Shown in pieces: positions 51,475 through 62,169 of a DNA stretch of 64,000 nt (position 1 is its first letter; each line of letters starts with the position of its first letter). Location of the stretch: the NCBI RefSeq assembly GCF_014863545.1, contig NZ_CP062260.1, positions 6,256,001 to 6,320,000 of the forward strand. The letters are read 5' to 3'. The notes beneath the pieces were generated by a model, which saw only the letters and a list, made by a program, of their open reading frames with translations, was not told the DNA's origin and ran no database searches. Position numbers and translations under genes: made by a program. The DNA comes from Paenibacillus sp. JNUCC32. GTDB lineage: Bacteria > Bacillota > Bacilli > Paenibacillales > Paenibacillaceae.

Positions 51475-54400
51475 TTGAGTAAAAAGTTATGGTCTGCACT
51501 ACTAAGTTTTGTATTAACGCTATCATTGGTTGCGCCAGCGGCCGGGGCGGCTCCATCCGAACGGCAGATCGAGCTGGGCAATCCGCTCAGTGCCGAAGAA
51601 GCTAGGCAGATAAAGGATATGTTGAAACAGCGAGCTAAGCTTGCTGAGTTTCCCGCGCTTGATCAAAGCCTGCAAAGATCGGCCGGGGGTCCTACAAGGG
51701 TTATCGTAGAATTGTCTACCGAACCCGTGGCTTTGGCCAAGGGGCTTTCCTCTATTCAGGGTCAATCTTTTAGTTCTTCCGCGGAGGCGAAGGTCGAGGC
51801 ACAGGTACAATTGGAGCAGCAGACTTTTATACGCAGCCTGAACACGAAGAACATCACGCATGAAATCTCCGATCAATATAGCTACGCATTCAACGGGGTG
51901 TCTATGGAGATCGATGGCAGCAAGGTTGAAGCGCTGCTGGATATCCCTGGCGTTCTAGGCGTTTATCCCGATCTGGAGGTAACGGTTGGACCAAAGGGCG
52001 AAGTGAATCCATACATGAAAGACACGGGGCCGTTCATCGGTGCTCCGGATGTCTGGGATCTCGGATATACAGGCAAAGGCATTAAAGTTGGCGTTATTGA
52101 TACAGGTATTGACTACGCTCACCCGGTTTTGAAGGATGCTTATAAGGGCGGATACGACTTCGTTGACAATGATAATGATCCTTATGAGACAACTCCGCTC
52201 GATTGGGAGAATGATCCTTCCAAACCCCCACAGGTCGATGACAGGGGAAGCACGTACTGGACCGATCATGGAACGCACGTAGCGGGTACCATCGGAGCCC
52301 GCGATGCCGGCGAATATGGAGTCGTGGGCATCGCACCCGAAGCGGATATCTATGCTTACCGCGTTCTTGGGCCGTACGGCAGCGGCTATTCCAGCTGGGT
52401 TCTGGGAGGTATTGACCGTTCCGTTCAGGACGGAATGGATGTAATCAACCTCTCCCTGGGCAATTCCCGAAATGATCCGGACTATGTAACGTCCGTAGCA
52501 CTTAACAATGCTGCACTGGCTGGTGTCACGCCAGTCGTTGCAAGCGGCAATACAGGGCCAAACCGCTGGACGGTGGGATCGCCGGGGGCGGCGGCTTTTC
52601 CGATTACGGTAGGAAACTCCACGGGGCCAAGCGACGAAATGGCGGCAACATCGCACTTTTTCACGGACGCGGAATTGCCGGGTGAGCCCATTGAAAACAA
52701 TGAGGGCACGGTTGAGCTTGGTGAAGGACCAACGCCATCTGTCACGCCTGACGAGCAGGCAGAAGCACAGATCGATGAAGCTGCCCAGGCAGCATCGACC
52801 GATGACACGGCGCCTTCCGTTAATCCGGAGCAGGATTCAAACTTAGTTCAATCGGGTGACGGTGCAGCAGAGGAGCCGGCCACTGATCAAGTGCCTGCTG
52901 AATCTGCCGAGGATGAAGTAGCCCCTCAGGCTGACGATGCCGCTCCGGTTACCGTAGTAGATGCTACGTATAAGCTTGAATTAATGGCGTGGAATCTCGC
53001 CGAGGACCCGGAAGTCGTCCTGGATGGAGATTTCGGACTGATTTATGCGGATCTGGGCAAACCAGAGGATTTCGCTGACAAAGACGTAGCGGGCAAAATC
53101 GCATTGATTAAACGCGGCGAACTCGCCTTCGTTGAAAAAATTGCGAATGCTAAGGCAGCAGGCGCGACGGGTGCCATCGTATTCAACCAGAACCCTGGCC
53201 CGATCGGCGTCTTGCTCGGAGACAGCTTTGCCTTCATTCCAACCTTTAGTATGAGTAAAGAAGACGGCGATTATATCAAATCGCTGCTCGATGCCAACCC
53301 GGATCTGAAAGTGAATTTCACTGATTTTATTAAAAACCGAACGGCAGGCGATGAGATTAATGATTCCAGCTCGAGAGGCCCGGCCAAGAAGACGCTGGAT
53401 ATCAAGCCTGACGTGGTAGCGCCGGGAACGAGCATTTTGTCATCCGTTCCGGCATACGGTAAGGACATTGCAGGTGCGGATTACAGTCAGTCCTATGACC
53501 GCTTAACAGGCACTAGTATGGCGTCCCCGCATGTGGCAGGGCTTGCGGCTCTCATCCTGGAGAAGCACAACGACTGGACCCCGTTCGATGTCAAAGTCGC
53601 CTTGATGAATAACGCCAAAGTGCTGAATACCGAATCCTACGATGTGACGGATCAAGGAGCCGGACGCGTACAGGCGCTCCAGACCATCCAGGCAGAGGCG
53701 CTGGTTAAGGTCTTGGACAAGACTTCGTATCAAGAGAACGGAACAAGTAAAGAGCAGGATAATATTACCGGAAGCATTAACTTTGGTAATTTTACAGGAG
53801 CAACCGCACAAACCGTTCAGAAGAAAGTAAAAGTAGAACAGATTGGTGACATTGGCGGACGGTTTGAGGTTGAGGTTACTACAACTCAATCTACCCCTGG
53901 AGTAGCTGTTACAGTGGATCAATCTTCCTTTGATCTAAATGGAGAGAAAGAACTGGTTGTAACGCTTCAAGTTCCGGCAGGTGTATCAGGAGTTTCCGAA
54001 CAGCAAGGCTACATTACTTTTAAAAACGAAACACGCACTTACTCTGTACCATACGTAGCCTACTTCAATCTCGAGATGACCGGCGTCAAATATACGAAGG
54101 TCTACAGTGAGAACGAGGACTATCTGCCGCATTTCCCTTTGAACGAACAAGGGGAACTGGACGAACTGAATATAGGTTTTGAATTCTATAATCCTATGGG
54201 AATCGTGATCGTAGATTTGTATGACAGCCTTCATCCAGAATCAGGACCAGATCAAGATGGATTGATTGGGCAAATTTTTGGTACGGATGAGTATCTCTTT
54301 GAAGCTAATACGGAATATACACACGACTGGGATGGTGAGTACCTCAACTACACATCCGAGGAAATCGAAAAGGTTAAAGACGGCTTGTATTCGGTTGAAC

Positions 54401-55941
54401 TTCTCTCTCTCGGTACTAATGGGAATGTTTATTCGGATTATGCGACAATTCCTTTTTTCGTGAAGAGATCCGCACCTGAGGTCAAAACTGAGCTTGATGT
54501 CAAAATCTCCGGCAAGAGCAATCCTGCACTAACGGGCACGATCGATGACCTCTATGTAACGGCAGTTCCGGCAATGTGGGATGAATGGACGATTGATTTT
54601 GATGTGAGCGAATGGCTGGATGCCACTTATGTTATTAAAAGAGCCAATAAAACGGTAGCGAAGGAAGGCAGCTTTGATGTCGGGCAGGATGGCGCCTTTG
54701 CCATCGCACTGGACGGATTGGCTTCGGGCAACTATACCGTCGAGCTTTCCGTCAAGGATCGCCAAGGTCTTGAAGGTAAAGCGACGGTTAACCTGCAATT
54801 GACAGGCGCACCTGGACCTGGCAACCCGGACCCGGGTAATGGCGGAGGAGGCGGTGGCGGCTCGTCCTCCGGCGGCGGTCCCACGGGAACACCGTCCACT
54901 CCGGCTCCTGAAGTATCAGGGGATGCCAAAGTAACGACGAAGAAAAATGCGGATGGCACCGAGTCCGCAACGGCAGCTCTGTCTGAAGCAGTGGTTACGG
55001 CAGGAATTACTAGTGACGGTAAGGAAGTGAAGCTGGACGTATCGAAGCTGGATTTCAGCAAATACAGCGACGTAGCTCTTACCCTCGGCAAAACGACTGT
55101 CGATAAACTAAAAGCATCCGGCAAACCGCTTGTTATTACGGGTAACGGCTTTACCTTGACGGTGCCTGCCGATGCCTTGGATGATTTCACGACGAGCAGC
55201 GGATTCAGCTTGACGGTTTCGGTAGCTGCAAGCAAAGCGGGATCCGGGAACACCTTGAACGCTGTATCCTCGATCGTTTCGGTCAAACACGGGGACAAGT
55301 TTAAACATCCGCTTTTACTGACATTGAATTATGACCATACAAAAGTGAAGGATACACGCAAGGTAGGTGCCTACGTGCAGTCGGAAAAAGGAGACCTGCA
55401 ATCCGCAGGATTGCTGCAATCGGCTGAGCGCGGATCGATCACGTTCCGTATCAACGGACCGGGTTCTTATGCAGCTGCCGAGAATAACGTAACCTTTAAC
55501 GACATCGTCAGCCACTGGGCTAAGGATGAGATTGAAGTTGCTGCCTCGCAGCATATCACGAACGGTACCGGTGCAGGACGGTTCTCGCCGAACAATGCGG
55601 TAACCCGTGCCGAATTTGCGACGCTGCTTGATCGTATTTTCGAGACAGGCATCGATTGGGAAACACGCAGCAAAGAGGCGGGGGCGAAGCATCCGCTGAC
55701 CCGTGAGGAAATGGTAGTCATGATCGCGGAAGCGTTGAAGCTGGATTCCGAAACGGCATCCTTGTCATTTAGCGATACGAATCTGATTTCGGAGGATGCA
55801 CGTGCGGCCGTGGCCTTTGCCGTAAACGAAGGTTTGGTGAAGGGAGTGAGCGGCAACCGCTTCGCACCGGGCGAGACTTCCACTCGGGCTCAGGTATCCG
55901 TGATTGTGTACCGTTTACTGGATTATCTGAATAAAATCTAA
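51475..55941 (+). CDS. Secreted S8 (subtilisin-family, Vpr-like) protease with PA and SLH domains
   Basis: 1488 residues from TTG 51475, which follows GGGAGGGG and gives the signal peptide MSKKLWSALLSFVL...GAA. Order: inhibitor I9-type propeptide (about 60-175, ending LGVYPDLEVT), peptidase S8 with Asp209 (VIDTGIDY), His265 (DHGTHVAGT) and Ser681 (GTSMASPHVAG), an acidic Ser/Thr/Pro-rich insert (about 410-490) and a PA domain (about 500-610) inside the catalytic region, Fn3-like and beta domains (about 760-1110), a Gly/Pro/Ser linker (GGGGGGGSSSGGG), a beta domain, and two to three SLH motifs at the C terminus (FNDIVSHWAKDEIEVAA, NNAVTRAEFATLL, FAPGETSTRAQVSVIVY). It should be exported, self-processed and held on the secondary wall polymer. 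Confidence 0.93.
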   Translation: MSKKLWSALLSFVLTLSLVAPAAGAAPSERQIELGNPLSAEEARQIKDMLKQRAKLAEFPALDQSLQRSAGGPTRVIVELSTEPVALAKGLSSIQGQSFSSSAEAKVEAQVQLEQQTFIRSLNTKNITHEISDQYSYAFNGVSMEIDGSKVEALLDIPGVLGVYPDLEVTVGPKGEVNPYMKDTGPFIGAPDVWDLGYTGKGIKVGVIDTGIDYAHPVLKDAYKGGYDFVDNDNDPYETTPLDWENDPSKPPQVDDRGSTYWTDHGTHVAGTIGARDAGEYGVVGIAPEADIYAYRVLGPYGSGYSSWVLGGIDRSVQDGMDVINLSLGNSRNDPDYVTSVALNNAALAGVTPVVASGNTGPNRWTVGSPGAAAFPITVGNSTGPSDEMAATSHFFTDAELPGEPIENNEGTVELGEGPTPSVTPDEQAEAQIDEAAQAASTDDTAPSVNPEQDSNLVQSGDGAAEEPATDQVPAESAEDEVAPQADDAAPVTVVDATYKLELMAWNLAEDPEVVLDGDFGLIYADLGKPEDFADKDVAGKIALIKRGELAFVEKIANAKAAGATGAIVFNQNPGPIGVLLGDSFAFIPTFSMSKEDGDYIKSLLDANPDLKVNFTDFIKNRTAGDEINDSSSRGPAKKTLDIKPDVVAPGTSILSSVPAYGKDIAGADYSQSYDRLTGTSMASPHVAGLAALILEKHNDWTPFDVKVALMNNAKVLNTESYDVTDQGAGRVQALQTIQAEALVKVLDKTSYQENGTSKEQDNITGSINFGNFTGATAQTVQKKVKVEQIGDIGGRFEVEVTTTQSTPGVAVTVDQSSFDLNGEKELVVTLQVPAGVSGVSEQQGYITFKNETRTYSVPYVAYFNLEMTGVKYTKVYSENEDYLPHFPLNEQGELDELNIGFEFYNPMGIVIVDLYDSLHPESGPDQDGLIGQIFGTDEYLFEANTEYTHDWDGEYLNYTSEEIEKVKDGLYSVELLSLGTNGNVYSDYATIPFFVKRSAPEVKTELDVKISGKSNPALTGTIDDLYVTAVPAMWDEWTIDFDVSEWLDATYVIKRANKTVAKEGSFDVGQDGAFAIALDGLASGNYTVELSVKDRQGLEGKATVNLQLTGAPGPGNPDPGNGGGGGGGSSSGGGPTGTPSTPAPEVSGDAKVTTKKNADGTESATAALSEAVVTAGITSDGKEVKLDVSKLDFSKYSDVALTLGKTTVDKLKASGKPLVITGNGFTLTVPADALDDFTTSSGFSLTVSVAASKAGSGNTLNAVSSIVSVKHGDKFKHPLLLTLNYDHTKVKDTRKVGAYVQSEKGDLQSAGLLQSAERGSITFRINGPGSYAAAENNVTFNDIVSHWAKDEIEVAASQHITNGTGAGRFSPNNAVTRAEFATLLDRIFETGIDWETRSKEAGAKHPLTREEMVVMIAEALKLDSETASLSFSDTNLISEDARAAVAFAVNEGLVKGVSGNRFAPGETSTRAQVSVIVYRLLDYLNKI

Positions 55942-55976
55942 TCAAGGATAGGCAGAGACAGAGCTTTAACGATGGA

Positions 55977-56007
55977 GGACTCGGCTGTTAGCAGCCGAGT
56001 CCTTTTT
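55977..56007 (+). terminator. Terminator of SLH protease gene
   Basis: GGACTCGGCTG and CAGCCGAGTCC form a perfect 11-bp stem around TTAG, followed by five T residues. Confidence 0.93.
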
Positions 56008-56013
56008 ATTTTC

Positions 56014-56043
56014 TTGACAGCGTTCTGCATGAACGTTTGTAAT
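56014..56043 (+). promoter_or_regulatory. SigA promoter of 64-residue membrane protein gene
   Basis: A consensus TTGACA (56014-56019) and TGTAAT (56038-56043) separated by 18 bases, starting just after the previous terminator. It supports the reality of the small gene that follows. Confidence 0.7.
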
Positions 56044-56081
56044 ATAAAGGAAATGGATGAGCAACCGGGAGGCGAACAAAG

Positions 56082-56276
56082 ATAAAAACCCAAAAAGCCG
56101 TCATTTATTTTACCATAGTAATCGTACCTTTATTCATCATCTTCACCGTGTTAGGAAGTATTGCCGAAGGAACGGAAGGCGGTGCGATCCAGCGAATCGT
56201 CGAATGGTTAACGACCTATATTTTTCCATGGATCTTCTTGTATTGGTTTATTAAGCTGGTCCGCAAGGTGAAGTAA
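56082..56276 (+). CDS. 64-residue membrane protein with apparent ATA start
   Basis: Gene finders restricted to ATG/GTG/TTG would miss this. GGGAGG at 56068-56073 is followed 8 bases later by ATA, which opens 64 codons: (M)KTQKAVIYFTIVIVPLF at the start, then IIFTVLGSIAEG, an amphipathic TEGGAIQRIVEWLTTY, a second hydrophobic helix IFPWIFLYWFIKLV and a basic end RKVK. Two membrane segments with positive ends suggest a small inner-membrane protein of unknown function. The frame has an upstream TGA close to the site, so a longer start is excluded. A strong promoter and a strong terminator bracket it. Possible explanations are true AUA initiation or a base error for ATG. No family is recognised. 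Confidence 0.7.
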   Translation: MKTQKAVIYFTIVIVPLFIIFTVLGSIAEGTEGGAIQRIVEWLTTYIFPWIFLYWFIKLVRKVK

Positions 56277-56299
56277 ACAAGGCCGTATGAAAGCTCAAG

Positions 56300-56329
56300 A
56301 AAGACTCGGGTGTTTACCCGAGTCTTTTT
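56300..56329 (+). terminator. Terminator of small membrane protein gene
   Basis: AAAGACTCGGGT and ACCCGAGTCTTT form a perfect 12-bp stem around GTTT, followed by a T-run. Confidence 0.93.
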
Positions 56330-56459
56330 CGTTTTCGCCAAAGATCCCTCATACGGGGGATGTATATCTACCCAGTCAAAAGCTACTATTTTATATGGGT
56401 ATGCATTCCTATTTCACTAGTTTGTATGTTTAAAAAACGAAAAAAGGAGGATAAGAGCC

Positions 56460-59400
56460 ATTAAGCGCAGTGTATCACAAACATTCATTGTGATGGCCAT
56501 GATCTTGCCACTTCTGTTAGGTAGCCTGGCCATCCCGGTGAAAGACCGGGCTTTTGCATTACAGGTACAGGCCGAGACGCTCGGTAACATCAATTATGAT
56601 CCACGTGGATTTGCTTCAGTTTCTCCTTTCTATAGCAACGGGAGCACCATCGGGGTTTTGGACGACTTTGGTAAAGTCCCTCCGGACGCACGGTGGGTCA
56701 CGTTCATACCGTTCAGTTTAAACGGGCTGGAGCTTTATTACAGCCGGGACGGAATTACAACCGAGAAGAAAGTGATTAACTATGGTGATTGGAGCGATAT
56801 TCCAGACGATGTGAAGTGGCTGACATTTAGCAACTTTGATGGCGGGTTCGGCGAGAATCAGCCCATCTATAATCAGCAATACACGTATAGTATTGACGGC
56901 GTCAATGTTTTGAGCGGCCCGGAGGTGCCGGCCAACGCGCTGTGGGCAACGCTAAGCTATTATACGACGACCTGGGCTGGTGAAAGCAGATCGTTGAACT
57001 ACAGCCGTTCCCGGGCAAGCTACGCGCTAAATGTGGACCCGATCCGCAGCATTTCGATTCAGTCCCATGGGGCAGATCGGAGTTATGCAAGGGCAGGCGA
57101 TACGGTTACGTTATCCTTTTCATCGCTTCGAGCGCTCCAATCCCCAAGTGTCACACTGGCTGGACAGCAAATGCAAGCAATCGCTATACCGAACGCGGTC
57201 GGAAACGAATGGAGGGCCTTTGTGACGCTGGATGCTAGCCATCCGGAAGGGGAGATCCATTTCAGCATTGCATACCAAGACGAAGGGATTCCTATGACCG
57301 TATCGGCGACCACGGATGGAAGCTCCGTATTTTTCGACAATAGCCCGCCATTGGTATCTCTGTCGCAATCTACGTCAGAATGGACACAGGGCAACGTCAT
57401 TGTTACCGGACATACATATGATACGGGGAGCGGGGTCCAGATTAAGAAATGGGCGGAAGGCCGCCAAAAGGCATCCTTTTTCCATAATAACGGCGATCTG
57501 CCGCTAGGCGGCATGGTATTCACCGCGTTCAATAACGGATGGTATAGCTGGTATGCAAAGGATCGTGCAGGGAATGAAACGGTGCAGTTCATTGAAATCG
57601 GGAACATTGATCGAGTCTCACCTTCGCTTACCCTGACGTCATCACCGACGGAATGGACTTCCGGGTCTGTCCAAATTACCGCATCAACCGTAGATGATCT
57701 CAGTGGCGTAAAGCTCACGAGGTGGGCTGAAGGCAACCAACCGCTGGCATTTTTCAAGAATGGCGGTGGAACCATGTTCAGCGATTCTTTTACAGTGACG
57801 GATAACGCGATCTACACCGTTTATGCAGAAGATCAAGCGGGGAATGCGGTAACAGAGCAGATCACGATTCACAATCTGGACGACATCCCCCCTGCGATTT
57901 CGTTGACGTCATCCACGACAGAGCCGACGCAGACGGATATCGCTATTACTGTAGACGCCTCCGATCAGGAAAGCGGCATCGAGATCGTCAAATGGGCAGC
58001 GGGCAAGAAGCCGGCCTCCTATTTTGCGACAGAGGGGAACACCTTGCAAGGGACAGGCTTTACGGTTTCAGAGAACGGTCTATACACAGTCTATGCCAAG
58101 GACAAGGCCGGGAACGAACAGATCGAGACCATAGAAATCACCAATATTTATAAAAGCGGCCCAAACCTCCGGCTGTCACTCAACAACCCCGATTGGGCGA
58201 ACAGCCCCGTTCGAATACAACTCGATGTAACGGACAACGGTAGCGGGATCGCGGTGCAGAAATGGGCTGCCGGACATCATGATTCCGATTATTTCAAGAA
58301 TGAAGGCACTCCGTTTACCGGTAGCAGCTTTACCGTTGACAGCAATGGAATGTATACCGTTTATATCAAAGACAATGCTGGTTACGAGGCCGTGGCCGTC
58401 ATTGAGGTTACCCGAATGGATAACGAAAGACCGATAATATCGGAGCCCAAGCTAACGCCCGGTACGTGGACGAGTCAGGATGTCGAAGTGTGGGTATCCG
58501 GCATGGACAACTCCGGCGTGATCTCACTTATGAAATGGAGCGCCGGTGTGCAGGACGATGTTTACTTCGAGCAAGGAAGGGGCACCGTGTTCCAGGATGT
58601 ATTTATGGTGGATGCGAACGGAGAATACACGGTATATGCGAAAGACGCTGCCGGTAACGGGAATGTTAGATCCTTCCATGTAAGCAACATCGATAGGGAA
58701 GAACCGATCATCCACCTGCAGCCTTCTATCAAGGATCCGACTAACCAGAACGTGGCCGTGACGGCTGATGTTTACGGTACGTTAAGTCCGATTATGTCTA
58801 CGAAGTGGGCGCCGGGGATCCAGCCGTTGTCCTATTTTGAAGCGGAAGGGAACGACTTTAACGGAACCTTCGAAGCGGAGTTGAATGGATGGTATACCGT
58901 ATACGCCGAGAGTGCTGCGGGCAACAAAACAATTGAGACCATTGAAGTCATGAACATTTTTAAAGAGGTGCCAGTCATTCAGGTTGCGGTGTCACCGTCT
59001 GTTCCGACGCAAACCGACGTCACGGTGACCGCCTCGGTCTATGCTCCGAATCCATTGGTTGAGAGTAAGCTTGCCTTCGGGCAACAGGATGCTTCCTATT
59101 TCGCACACGGTGGTGGTGAGCCTTGGAGTGATAGGCTGGAGGTCCATGACAATGGCTGGATTACTTATTATGTCCGGGATCATGCAGGCAATGAGTCGGT
59201 GAAACTGGTGGAAATCACGAATATCGATCGTAAAAAGCCAGTAATTACCCTGCTTGGCGATTCTCGAATCTCATTGGTGCAAGGTTCTGACTATACGGAT
59301 CCGGGGGCCATGGCCTATGACAATCTAGACGGAGATCTAACGGATCGCATCGAGGTTGAAGGTAAAGTCGATACTTCCAGATTGGGACAATACACGCTCC

Positions 59401-60236
59401 GTTATTCGGTAGCCGATCGTGCCGGCAATGAGGCGGAAGAGGTTGTTCGAACGGTTAACGTTACGCCTCGGCCAGGTGGTGGAGATACAGGACCGACTGA
59501 TCCTACACCGGGAAGTGGCGGGAGCGAGCCGAATCCTGCTCCAGTAGATAAGGGGGATAAGAACGAAGGACTTCCAGGATCGATTTCAACCCCAACGCCA
59601 ACCCCAACCCCAACCCCAACAACACCAGCTCCAGGAAATGGCGGCGGTTCGTCCGCTGCACAGCCGCCCCCTAGCAAACAGACTCCTGCCCTTACCGACA
59701 TTACCGGACACTGGGCCGAGTCTGACATCCAGGCGCTATATGATCTGAAGCTGGTAAAAGGTTATCCTGACGGAAGCTACAAACCAGACCGTCCGGTGAC
59801 CCGGGCCGAATTTGTCGCGCTGCTGATACGGAGCCTGGGATTAAAGGGGCAATACAGCGCTGGATTCCAGGATATTAAAAATCACTGGGCTGGTGACGCG
59901 ATTCGTACTGCTCTGGCCCATGGAATTATTGGTGGGTACAGCAGCCGAGCTTTTGGCCCCGATGATCCGATCACACGTGAGCAAATGGCTGTCATGCTGG
60001 CCAACTCGAGCCAGCTTGTGAGTCTTTCCTCCAGTGTTTCCGGTACAAACTTAACTTCCTTCAAAGACCAAGGCTCCATATCCGCCTGGGCAAAGCAACA
60101 GGTATCCGACGTGGTTGAGAACGAGTTGATGAACGGGTACCCCGGAGGAAGCTTCTTGCCTCGAGGATTGGCAACACGTGCAGAGATAGCAGCGGTTATA
60201 CATCGTTTTATAAATGTAATTGAACAGAGCATATAA
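56460..60236 (+). CDS. Secreted Ig-repeat SLH surface protein with apparent ATT start
   Basis: 1258 residues. The best ribosome binding site in the region, AAAAAGGAGG, ends at 56450; 9 bases on is ATT, which gives (M)KRSVSQTFIVMAMILP, a signal peptide with a proper basic end. The first standard start, GTG 56490, has no site and removes that basic end. After a roughly 150-residue N-terminal domain come about seven repeats of about 93 residues, each with a W-A-x-G motif (KWAEGRQKASFF, RWAEGNQPLAFF, KWAAGKKPASYF) and a YTVYAKDxAGN end: bacterial Ig-like modules. A DUF5011/HYR-like domain (VITLLGDSRISLVQGSDYTDPGA), a Pro/Thr linker and three full SLH repeats follow (ITGHWAESDIQALYD...). It is anchored to secondary wall polymer; no catalytic site is seen. 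Adhesion or a structural surface role is the guess. Confidence 0.88.
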   Translation: MKRSVSQTFIVMAMILPLLLGSLAIPVKDRAFALQVQAETLGNINYDPRGFASVSPFYSNGSTIGVLDDFGKVPPDARWVTFIPFSLNGLELYYSRDGITTEKKVINYGDWSDIPDDVKWLTFSNFDGGFGENQPIYNQQYTYSIDGVNVLSGPEVPANALWATLSYYTTTWAGESRSLNYSRSRASYALNVDPIRSISIQSHGADRSYARAGDTVTLSFSSLRALQSPSVTLAGQQMQAIAIPNAVGNEWRAFVTLDASHPEGEIHFSIAYQDEGIPMTVSATTDGSSVFFDNSPPLVSLSQSTSEWTQGNVIVTGHTYDTGSGVQIKKWAEGRQKASFFHNNGDLPLGGMVFTAFNNGWYSWYAKDRAGNETVQFIEIGNIDRVSPSLTLTSSPTEWTSGSVQITASTVDDLSGVKLTRWAEGNQPLAFFKNGGGTMFSDSFTVTDNAIYTVYAEDQAGNAVTEQITIHNLDDIPPAISLTSSTTEPTQTDIAITVDASDQESGIEIVKWAAGKKPASYFATEGNTLQGTGFTVSENGLYTVYAKDKAGNEQIETIEITNIYKSGPNLRLSLNNPDWANSPVRIQLDVTDNGSGIAVQKWAAGHHDSDYFKNEGTPFTGSSFTVDSNGMYTVYIKDNAGYEAVAVIEVTRMDNERPIISEPKLTPGTWTSQDVEVWVSGMDNSGVISLMKWSAGVQDDVYFEQGRGTVFQDVFMVDANGEYTVYAKDAAGNGNVRSFHVSNIDREEPIIHLQPSIKDPTNQNVAVTADVYGTLSPIMSTKWAPGIQPLSYFEAEGNDFNGTFEAELNGWYTVYAESAAGNKTIETIEVMNIFKEVPVIQVAVSPSVPTQTDVTVTASVYAPNPLVESKLAFGQQDASYFAHGGGEPWSDRLEVHDNGWITYYVRDHAGNESVKLVEITNIDRKKPVITLLGDSRISLVQGSDYTDPGAMAYDNLDGDLTDRIEVEGKVDTSRLGQYTLRYSVADRAGNEAEEVVRTVNVTPRPGGGDTGPTDPTPGSGGSEPNPAPVDKGDKNEGLPGSISTPTPTPTPTPTTPAPGNGGGSSAAQPPPSKQTPALTDITGHWAESDIQALYDLKLVKGYPDGSYKPDRPVTRAEFVALLIRSLGLKGQYSAGFQDIKNHWAGDAIRTALAHGIIGGYSSRAFGPDDPITREQMAVMLANSSQLVSLSSSVSGTNLTSFKDQGSISAWAKQQVSDVVENELMNGYPGGSFLPRGLATRAEIAAVIHRFINVIEQSI
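59588..59620 (+). repeat. Hexanucleotide repeat in linker of SLH protein
   Basis: About five copies of a CCAACC-type hexamer encode Thr-Pro dipeptides. A 6-base unit can change linker length without shifting frame. Confidence 0.8.
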
Positions 60237-60396: not shown

Positions 60397-62169
60397 CTAC
60401 TCAGGAAAGGGATGGTCCTCGTGAAGCAAACCGAGCGTATTAGCGATGGCAGCGGCTTTTCCTCTTCGGTCAACCTTCAGTTTTTCGAAGATTTTCTTGA
60501 TGTGGGTCTTTACTGTCTCATTGGTGATGGTAAGTGCCGCAGCGATTTCTTTATTCGAGAGCCCCTTCGAGATCAGGCGAAGCACTTCCTTCTCCCGTCC
60601 TGTTAAATCATGCACTCCTCCCGCACGCTTTTTTGCCGATTGGAGGCCATGTTCGGAAAGCGGCAGCTCGGTATGGGAGCGGACTTTCGCATGAATGGCA
60701 AATAGAGCTTGGGAGGCAATGGTGCTCAACACATGAAAACGATCGGGGGCAAACGCTTTTGTGCTCATCTCATTTTGCAGAAACAATACTCCTAGCAATT
60801 GATCCTGAATAACGATAGGAAAATAAAGCACGGAACCTTCTGTCGAATGAGCGGAAGAAGTTGAGTTCAGCTCAACCATCCCTGGTGTGGCAGTCGGCCC
60901 GTGAAGGGCAGCTTGGGATTCCGCAGTCTGAATAAGCAAACGCCGGCTGACTCCATGGGCATCCTCCAGGAGAGTTCGCTGAGAAGAAGCCGTCAATCGC
61001 CTGCCGTCCATCTTTGCCGCAGCTTCTACATACCATTTGCCGTCCTGCAACATTAGCATCAGACCGCGATGGGCGCCGGCGTTCATGACCAGGAGCTGCA
61101 TGAAACGTTCAGCTACTCGCTCCGTTGCGATCTCCGAGTTAAAAATATGTGATGCCTGCATGATGGCGGCCAAATCCAACACTTGCGGATAGTTGACGAT
61201 ATGGCCCGAAAGCGACATGGAGGGGACGGTTTCCTGGAAGGACTTATCCCCCTCGTCCTTATCAGTGAATGCTTCATGCTGCTGAAATGAATTGGAAGCG
61301 GAAGGATTTTGCCTGGTTTCATACCTGCAGCGCTTGGCATCCGGATCTGATTCAGCAGCTAATCGATGTCGGGCTATTTTCTCAGCAATGCTCCGCATGT
61401 CGAGGTAGCGGTCATCGGGGTCTTTTTCCAGCATGTTCAGGATAAGCTCTGATATCCATTGAGGTAGACGAATATCATGGAAGGGCTCAGGCCTTATGGT
61501 AAGATGGGCGTGAGCCCAAGGAAGTGCACCGTTCGCGGTGAAGGGAAGTCTATGAGCGAATAGCTCGTAGAATGTCACGCCAAGTGAGTAGATATCGGCT
61601 CTGCCATCCAGTCGATGGCTCATTCTCCCGGTTTGTTCCGGGGACATATAGATAGGATTGGCTTCCAGACTGCCATGCCCCTGTAAATTCAATTGATCCC
61701 GGCGAACGGCGTATCCGAAGCCTGTTAAATAAACGTCCTGGGTGCTTTCCTGAACAAGAAGGGTATCTGGCCTGATGTTCAAATGCAGAACGTCGTGGGT
61801 ATGCAGATCCTGCAGCCTGCGGGCAGCGCGCTCAAGCATAGGGATTAATACCGAGGGTGAGGAGCCGTGGATTCGTACATATTCCCTTAAGGTTATAGCG
61901 TGAATGGGTTCGAACTCCAACACGATCATTGTCTTGAACGATAAGTAGGATACAGGCTTGAACAGCCCGTCCACATTCAAATCATTGAGGAAATGATATT
62001 CGTGGATGAGCTTCGCATTCTCGATCGTTGTACGGCTACCTTCTTTTACAATTTTCAGGAGCATCGTTCTCCGGGTTCGCTCGGAACGGGCATACGCCAC
62101 CGTAATATATGAATCCTCATAGACGATGCCGGTGATCGTATATCCTGGGATTTTCAACATATCGCACAT
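60397..62169 (-). CDS. Pseudokinase-GAF-LuxR transcriptional regulator
   Basis: 590 residues. Residues about 1-270 form a Hanks-type kinase fold like that of the large kinase-AAA-GAF sensor proteins of cyanobacteria, with YMSPEQTGRMSHRLDGRADIYSLGVTFYELFAHRLPF. The catalytic HRD loop reads HLNIRPDT (His129, Asn131 in place of Asp) and DFG reads GFG (Gly150), so it should not phosphorylate. Residues about 330-490 are a GAF domain (LDLAAIMQASHIFNSEIATERV...LYFPIVIQDQLLGVLFLQN). The C terminus is a LuxR-type HTH (LTGREKEVLRLISKGLSNKEIAAALTITNETVKTHIKKIFEKL). The AAA+ module that normally lies between kinase and GAF is missing. The likely role is sensing a small ligand and activating transcription; the target is unknown. 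It has its own terminator. Confidence 0.88.
   Translation of the reverse strand: MCDMLKIPGYTITGIVYEDSYITVAYARSERTRRTMLLKIVKEGSRTTIENAKLIHEYHFLNDLNVDGLFKPVSYLSFKTMIVLEFEPIHAITLREYVRIHGSSPSVLIPMLERAARRLQDLHTHDVLHLNIRPDTLLVQESTQDVYLTGFGYAVRRDQLNLQGHGSLEANPIYMSPEQTGRMSHRLDGRADIYSLGVTFYELFAHRLPFTANGALPWAHAHLTIRPEPFHDIRLPQWISELILNMLEKDPDDRYLDMRSIAEKIARHRLAAESDPDAKRCRYETRQNPSASNSFQQHEAFTDKDEGDKSFQETVPSMSLSGHIVNYPQVLDLAAIMQASHIFNSEIATERVAERFMQLLVMNAGAHRGLMLMLQDGKWYVEAAAKMDGRRLTASSQRTLLEDAHGVSRRLLIQTAESQAALHGPTATPGMVELNSTSSAHSTEGSVLYFPIVIQDQLLGVLFLQNEMSTKAFAPDRFHVLSTIASQALFAIHAKVRSHTELPLSEHGLQSAKKRAGGVHDLTGREKEVLRLISKGLSNKEIAAALTITNETVKTHIKKIFEKLKVDRRGKAAAIANTLGLLHEDHPFPE

Follow-up and report, generated by a model that had tools for sequence, protein, structure and literature searches.

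A gene for a large SLH surface protein in Paenibacillus sp. JNUCC32 very probably starts, judging from its sequence and from that of its orthologues, at the rare and weak codon ATT instead of ATG. We favor the reading, with a probability of about 0.72, that this AUU start serves as a brake kept by selection and is combined with a promoter that a LuxR-type regulator would activate at a palindrome. The gene lies in a 64,000-nucleotide stretch of DNA (hereafter the window), and positions are those of the window unless stated otherwise.

Probable start site and product of the SLH gene

The SLH open reading frame (ORF) is open from 56421, its stop codon ends at 60236, and the in-frame stop 5' of the ATT is the TAG at 56418-56420. 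Neither between this TAG and the ATT nor anywhere in the open frame before the GTG at 56490 is there an ATG, GTG or TTG. Read directly, the Shine-Dalgarno (SD) sequence AAAGGAGG occupies 56443-56450 on the + strand and is followed after 9 nt by ATT at 56460-56462 (+ strand), in frame with the SLH ORF and continued by AAG CGC AGT; within 56440-56495, AAAAAGGAGG ends at 56450. A scan of the SLH ORFs found no SD match of at least 5 bases for GTG 56490 or the later ATGs, and ATT 56460 was the sole start of this ORF with a ribosome site in that scan. The codon at the proper distance from the strong SD is other than AUG, GUG or UUG, and in the window the scan gave no ordinary start with an SD that would compete with it; the G010 orthologue has an upstream GTG with a weak SD.

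Translated from the ATT, the gene (56460..60236, + strand) encodes 1258 aa comprising repeats, a Bact_surface_Ig-like domain and three C-terminal SLH domains, the latter detected as three stretches above the Pfam cut-off (E 5.2e-42). With its Ig-like and SLH domains the product is not IF3, the genes for which are found elsewhere in the genome. The N-terminus appears to be a signal peptide (56460..56573, + strand) with a basic IKR end, a hydrophobic core and a (V/I/M)QA-E end in all 11 aligned orthologues, and cleavage probably takes place at the (V/I/M)QA-E end.

The original prediction had placed the start at an ATT 9 nt after an SD, with a basic-ended signal peptide that a GTG start would lose and no binding site at that GTG; the sequence of 56440-56495, the orthologue alignment and the SD scan agree with it on each of these points. 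That translation begins instead at the GTG (56490..56492, + strand) or the adjoining ATGs is very improbable. These are the first ordinary codons in frame and the choice of gene finders limited to ATG, GTG and TTG, but the GTG has no SD match, initiation there would leave the signal peptide without its basic end, and the codon is kept in only three of the five closest orthologues, being absent from the other two (G010 and G051) and from the second genus described below. It was rejected as the start.

Conservation of the ATT codon among orthologues

A DNA search located the SLH gene in 5 of 100 genus genomes, its own included. In a protein search of 394 family genomes, 12 carried clear orthologues (E < 1e-70), and any match at 1e-3 was obtained in 72. 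The orthologues fall in three genera, labelled g1, g3 and g9. All nine orthologues of g1 and g3 have ATT at the start: the five of g1 share AAGGAGG, 9 nt, ATT, AA(A/G) and CG(C/T), and the four of g3 share AAAGGAG, 8 nt and ATT, one or the other of these SD forms being found across the 11 aligned orthologues. The codon after the ATT is AAA or AAG in eight of the nine and TAC in G172. G172 and G145 have another ATT directly before this one, and either of the tandem codons may start these two genes, which is counted against the preferred reading. In g9, two intact copies have AGGAGG, 9 nt and then ATG AAA AAC at the aligned place, together with an in-frame ATG directly after the SD. A third g9 copy (L034, G274:C1:2622013-2622759) keeps the ATG but has its frame broken near the 5' end; the analyses of codons, leaders and the SLH tree were run without it. 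That this third genus has ATG in the corresponding position adds weight to the reading of ATT as a start. Alignment of the upstream regions had been set beforehand as a test of the prediction; orthologues that keep the GTG without the upstream codons were not seen, and the opposite pattern was found.

The nine genomes with ATT have open frames of 1239-1270 codons. Because they share the same state, we rejected a sequencing error at the ATT, in line with the original argument that such an error was unlikely. The wider possibility of a silent gene that has lost its start codon, or of a wrong sequence, seems barely credible in the face of these open frames, even though a second non-canonical start adjoins the gene and G274 has a copy broken close to the 5' end.

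The beginning of the gene evolves fast, with DNA identities over 56501-57000 of 81% to G070 and 78% to G065. Despite these fast-changing surroundings, not one of the nine genomes has ATG, GTG or TTG in place of the ATT. More widely, identity to G070 drops locally to 71-81% (53501-54500 and 56501-57000) inside two SLH genes, and these low-identity stretches are fast-changing surface regions; the segment 58001-62500, which takes in the 3' half of the SLH gene together with the regulator gene described below, is 97-99% identical to G070.

We also asked how unusual it is for one codon to be retained. Of 19 columns with Ile in every one of the nine orthologues, three, the start included, are ATT throughout, and 34 of 351 invariant-residue columns keep a single codon in the nine (Met and Trp left out). 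By these counts the identity of the ATT, taken alone, is weak evidence, with a chance of roughly 1 in 10. The weight lies instead with its orthologous place behind an SD, the lack of an alternative start, the fast change around it and the absence of ATG in all nine. This bears on an alternative that we regard as unlikely but deserving of attention, namely that AUU is a real start without regulatory meaning, tolerated thanks to the strong SD or a low need for the protein. A strong SD is believed to make up for a weak start, an all-ATT Ile column is not rare (3/19), and g9 manages with ATG. Set against this, ATG is a single base away and yet occurs in none of the nine genomes across two genera, and the ATT has been retained in a fast-changing part of the gene.

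In a regulator tree with three outgroups the nine ATT genomes form one clade (100/99), and the SLH tree, built from 11 copies, does not conflict with this, so that one gain of ATT, or one loss in g9, suffices. Several observations count against the preferred reading. An in-frame GTG with a weak SD (GGTGAT) lies 36 nt upstream of the ATT in G010, and a TTG without SD lies 33 nt upstream in frame in G144, neither being common to the other orthologues. In every one of the five copies of g1, and in G173, the ATT is predicted to be mostly paired (unpaired probability at most 0.35).

A conserved upstream ORF in the leader was rejected, as none was common to the 11 leaders compared. Of 13 stretches that matched a pattern in a search for loci related to the SLH protein, none was confirmed.

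Non-canonical starts elsewhere in the genome

The genome has a size of 7.0 Mb, of which 747.5 kb was surveyed: 31 SLH-centred stretches, nine 20-kb stretches taken arbitrarily, and the window, which was added deliberately. Out of 542 ORFs of at least 120 codons, an ordinary start backed by an SD match of at least 5 was present in 398 and absent from 144. An ORF was flagged if an SD match of at least 7 lay 6-11 nt before ATT, ATC, ATA or CTG and no SD-supported ordinary start occurred earlier or within 60 nt. This rule picked four of the 542, among them the SLH ORF at 56460. In two of the remaining three, ATGs occur earlier in frame, and the third has a later ATG behind AGGAGG; the SLH ORF is the only flagged ORF with neither an earlier ordinary start nor a later SD-backed ATG.

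Across the 35 SLH ORFs collected from the genome, the one at 56460 alone combines an SD match of at least 7 at a non-canonical codon with the absence of an SD-supported ordinary start. At their non-canonical codons, the SLH ORFs at genome positions 2213586, 5836029 and 3140798 reach SD matches of no more than 5-6 bases, and those at 3781262, 4101057 and 4192508 have no SD match of at least 5. A class-wide rule for SLH proteins was rejected on this count (1/35), and the original prediction is not supported by it as a general rule for surface proteins.

The bare pattern SD-N9-ATTAARCG occurs in 6 of 100 genus genomes, as does its backward control (6/100), which is chance level. Five of the six genomic matches are the SLH gene itself. 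The sixth, in G073, looks like an ordinary start because an ATG directly precedes the ATT in the matched sequence.

A conserved palindrome and a putative promoter

Upstream of the SLH gene we found an 18-bp palindrome, ATCCCTCATACGGGGGAT (56344..56361), which we propose as the operator of a LuxR-type regulator. The form ATCCCTC-N4-G(G/A)GG(G/A)AT lies 22 nt before TAC(T/A)AT in 12 of 12 orthologues. This -10-like box reads TACTAT in the window (56384..56389, + strand) and TACAAT in the other two genera, its spacing and sequence being kept in all 12; G144 and G145 have two overlapping -10-like boxes, the second of them at 22 nt. If transcription starts some 6-7 nt after the box, as we infer, the palindrome would be centred near -43, where class II LuxR sites lie. 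Lux-box promoters are centred near -42.5, and a fixed distance between palindrome and -10 box, here 22 nt in 12/12, is likewise seen in LuxR-type class II promoters. A scan of the + strand of 55900-56600 for the sigma-70 consensus gave no site, as expected of an activated promoter. Neither this palindrome with its -10 box nor the linked LuxR-type gene figured in the original prediction, and both are new here.

In its strict form the palindrome has one site in the 7-Mb genome and is present at the SLH gene in 11 of 11 genomes searched, with extra sites in G065 (one) and G051 (two) and none for the backward control. Uniqueness alone says little, since about 0.4 sites per genome are expected by chance (an estimate assuming equal bases); it is the constant place that counts. 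A relaxed promoter pattern allowing one mismatch returned seven further sites in the 11 genomes, compared with two for the backward control. These additional sites weaken the picture of a single target and are counted against the preferred reading. Three of the seven were read, one in G010 and two orthologous sites in g9. The G010 site (L224, G010:C31 near 50859) has a near-copy of the operator and the -10 spacing before a 991-codon ORF with an SLH-like end (by eye) and ordinary start codons, which suggests a possible small SLH regulon in that species. The two g9 sites (L222 and L223, in G262 and G271) are an orthologous palindrome upstream of a LacI-like gene (by eye), some 20-21 kb from the regulator gene in both genomes.

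Could the palindrome be an RNA hairpin of the leader rather than a DNA operator? It can fold, and a U-G pair becomes U-A in G010 (by eye). Its position 22 nt upstream of the conserved TAC(T/A)AT in 12/12 genomes places it outside the presumed transcript, however, and no Rfam family is reached at its gathering score, all of which makes a hairpin improbable. The Rfam search gave six matches, none at its gathering score, and a riboswitch or other known RNA was rejected.

A linked gene for a putative LuxR-type regulator

The gene at 60397..62169 on the - strand starts with ATG and encodes 590 aa with protein-kinase-like, GAF and LuxR/GerE parts according to Pfam, and has an orthologue in each of the 12 genomes with the SLH gene. 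The two genes adjoin in 9 of the 12, in differing neighborhoods: the regulator is convergent and downstream in g1, codirectional and upstream in g3. In g9 the regulator gene lies at another place in the genome, and in G271 it is interrupted by an internal stop; we count both against the preferred reading. At E <= 1e-40 the regulator is found in 17 of the 394 family genomes, made up of 12/12 with the SLH gene and 5/382 of the others, one of the five matches being partial. The alignment and tree of the regulator exclude G271, owing to its internal stop, as well as G263 and G103, for which the matches were partial. Among 30 loci with relatives of the regulator (L152-L181), the palindrome, the 22-nt box and a full-length SLH orthologue occur together in five, all of them known orthologues; at L171, L172, L176, L178 and L181 there are partial SLH or repeat matches to the query.

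The arrangement resembles Lux-box promoters, in which a palindrome lies at a like distance from the -10 box beside a LuxR-type gene. It differs from them in that the regulator has kinase-like and GAF parts and no autoinducer domain among its Pfam matches, and in that binding here is a candidate interaction.

Proposed control of the SLH gene

The SD, the ATT, the palindrome, its 22-nt spacing and the gene pair are conserved, and from them we infer initiation at AUU, a low yield, LuxR binding and a possible sensitivity to IF3. A signal sensed by the kinase/GAF part would lead the LuxR part to activate the promoter, the regulator binding the palindrome near -43 and recruiting RNA polymerase to TAC(T/A)AT. 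On the resulting transcript the strong SD would load ribosomes, and the ordinary initiator tRNA, guided by that SD, would read the AUU at 56460. The AUU would make initiation inefficient and hold this large secreted protein to a fraction of the AUG yield, and selection would have retained the codon as a brake. That relatives in two genera keep the odd start suggests that the SLH protein is deliberately held low.

A stronger version, which we put forward tentatively and think more doubtful than not, is that the protein is under two locks, with a dedicated kinase/GAF/LuxR regulator acting at essentially one operator and an AUU throttle tied to IF3 and the state of initiation, the AUU start having been retained for at least the age of two genera. 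If so, it would to our knowledge, and as far as our literature search extends, be the first surface-layer-type protein controlled at its start codon. A search of the literature on AUU start codons, judged by titles, returned nothing on SLH genes. A conserved AUU in a structural surface gene, outside infC and the regulators, would show that start-codon throttling reaches envelope proteins too. With just one codon, one operator and one linked regulator involved, the locus would make a simple test bed.

Gene finders are reported to assume ATG, GTG and TTG commonly (PMC5472188), so genes with AUU starts would be annotated too short, losing part of the signal peptide. Such a case is described for Borrelia pncA, which has an AUU start and is said to be still annotated too short in databases (PMC13398362). 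As for export, secretion of an engineered protein from a signal peptide with an AUU start is reported to be possible in clostridia (PMC11040787).

Comparison with known non-canonical starts

Conserved AUU or AUA starts behind strong SDs are already known from infC, pcnB and S. aureus cvfC1 and ccpN, to which the SLH gene would add another, from an uncommon class of targets. In E. coli the AUU of pcnB reportedly limits translation of a chromosomal gene other than infC; pcnB has this start in common with the SLH gene, and its product, poly(A) polymerase, is no surface protein. The infC gene for IF3 (AUU, AUC or AUA) likewise combines a strong SD with a start codon of this class, and its weak initiation is expected to be sensitive to IF3, as that of the SLH gene may be by analogy. 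Autoregulation of the infC kind is not available to the SLH gene, since it encodes a surface protein. As a positive control infC was inspected by eye, and ATC or ATT stands behind TGGAGG in 11/11 genomes; the g3 copies read ATT ATC, either of which is usable. A second IF3-like gene, which by eye begins at an ordinary codon, was noticed at G000:C1:2800436-2800639 (L022) and at L198-L203, that is in 5/5 g1 and 2/2 g9 genomes searched, and a second match was absent from 4/4 g3 genomes.

In S. aureus, initiation is reported to have been mapped to the AUU of cvfC1 and to the AUA codons of ccpN and infC. Reporters for cvfC1, ccpN and citZ are described as reaching about 10% of the yield from AUG when the medium was poor, and the ccpN reporter as reaching up to 30% when it was rich (PMC13009471). 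As described there, cvfC1 and ccpN share with our case a conserved non-canonical start and an extended SD in a Firmicute; they encode a 61-aa protein and a repressor and were measured with reporters (PMC13009471), whereas the gene here encodes a large SLH protein and has a linked LuxR gene.

Streptomyces sigR is described as having a GTC start with a strong RBS, repressed by IF3, with GTC kept in 32 of 34 species and GTT in the other two (PMC5472188). In the published description (PMC5472188) it resembles the SLH gene as a rare start conserved across species behind a strong RBS, with the yield held down, and differs as a sigma-factor gene with a GTC codon and a demonstrated IF3 effect, which for the AUU of the SLH gene would hold by analogy. 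On this basis AUU might couple the SLH protein to the level of IF3 or of initiator tRNA, as for infC and sigR. Repression of non-canonical starts by IF3 (PMC5472188) and the ATC or ATT of infC in the same genomes would fit such coupling, but it would concern just one of 35 SLH ORFs, and we consider it rather unlikely.

A neighboring gene with an apparent ATA start

Upstream of the SLH gene, a gene for a 64-aa membrane protein (56082..56276, + strand) has an apparent ATA start 9 nt after GGAGG. It is a real sequence and a case separate from the SLH gene, although the original prediction had linked the two. At this place the ATA was seen only in the present genome (G000) and in G070, which is nearly identical to the window in this region and whose ATA was read from the alignment. 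On this ground and on the starts of its homologues, a link with the SLH gene was rejected, and a mechanism shared by the two genes is not supported. In G065 the gene is missing from this place (a 323-base gap), and in G010 and G051 the intergenic stretch is too short to hold it. No Pfam match was obtained for its product at E 0.01. Sixteen other homologues were read: the closest, namely those of G032, G024 and G010 in g1 and a paralogue in its own genome, have an ATG near the aligned start, and the more distant ones begin with ATG, GTG or TTG, some with longer N-termini.
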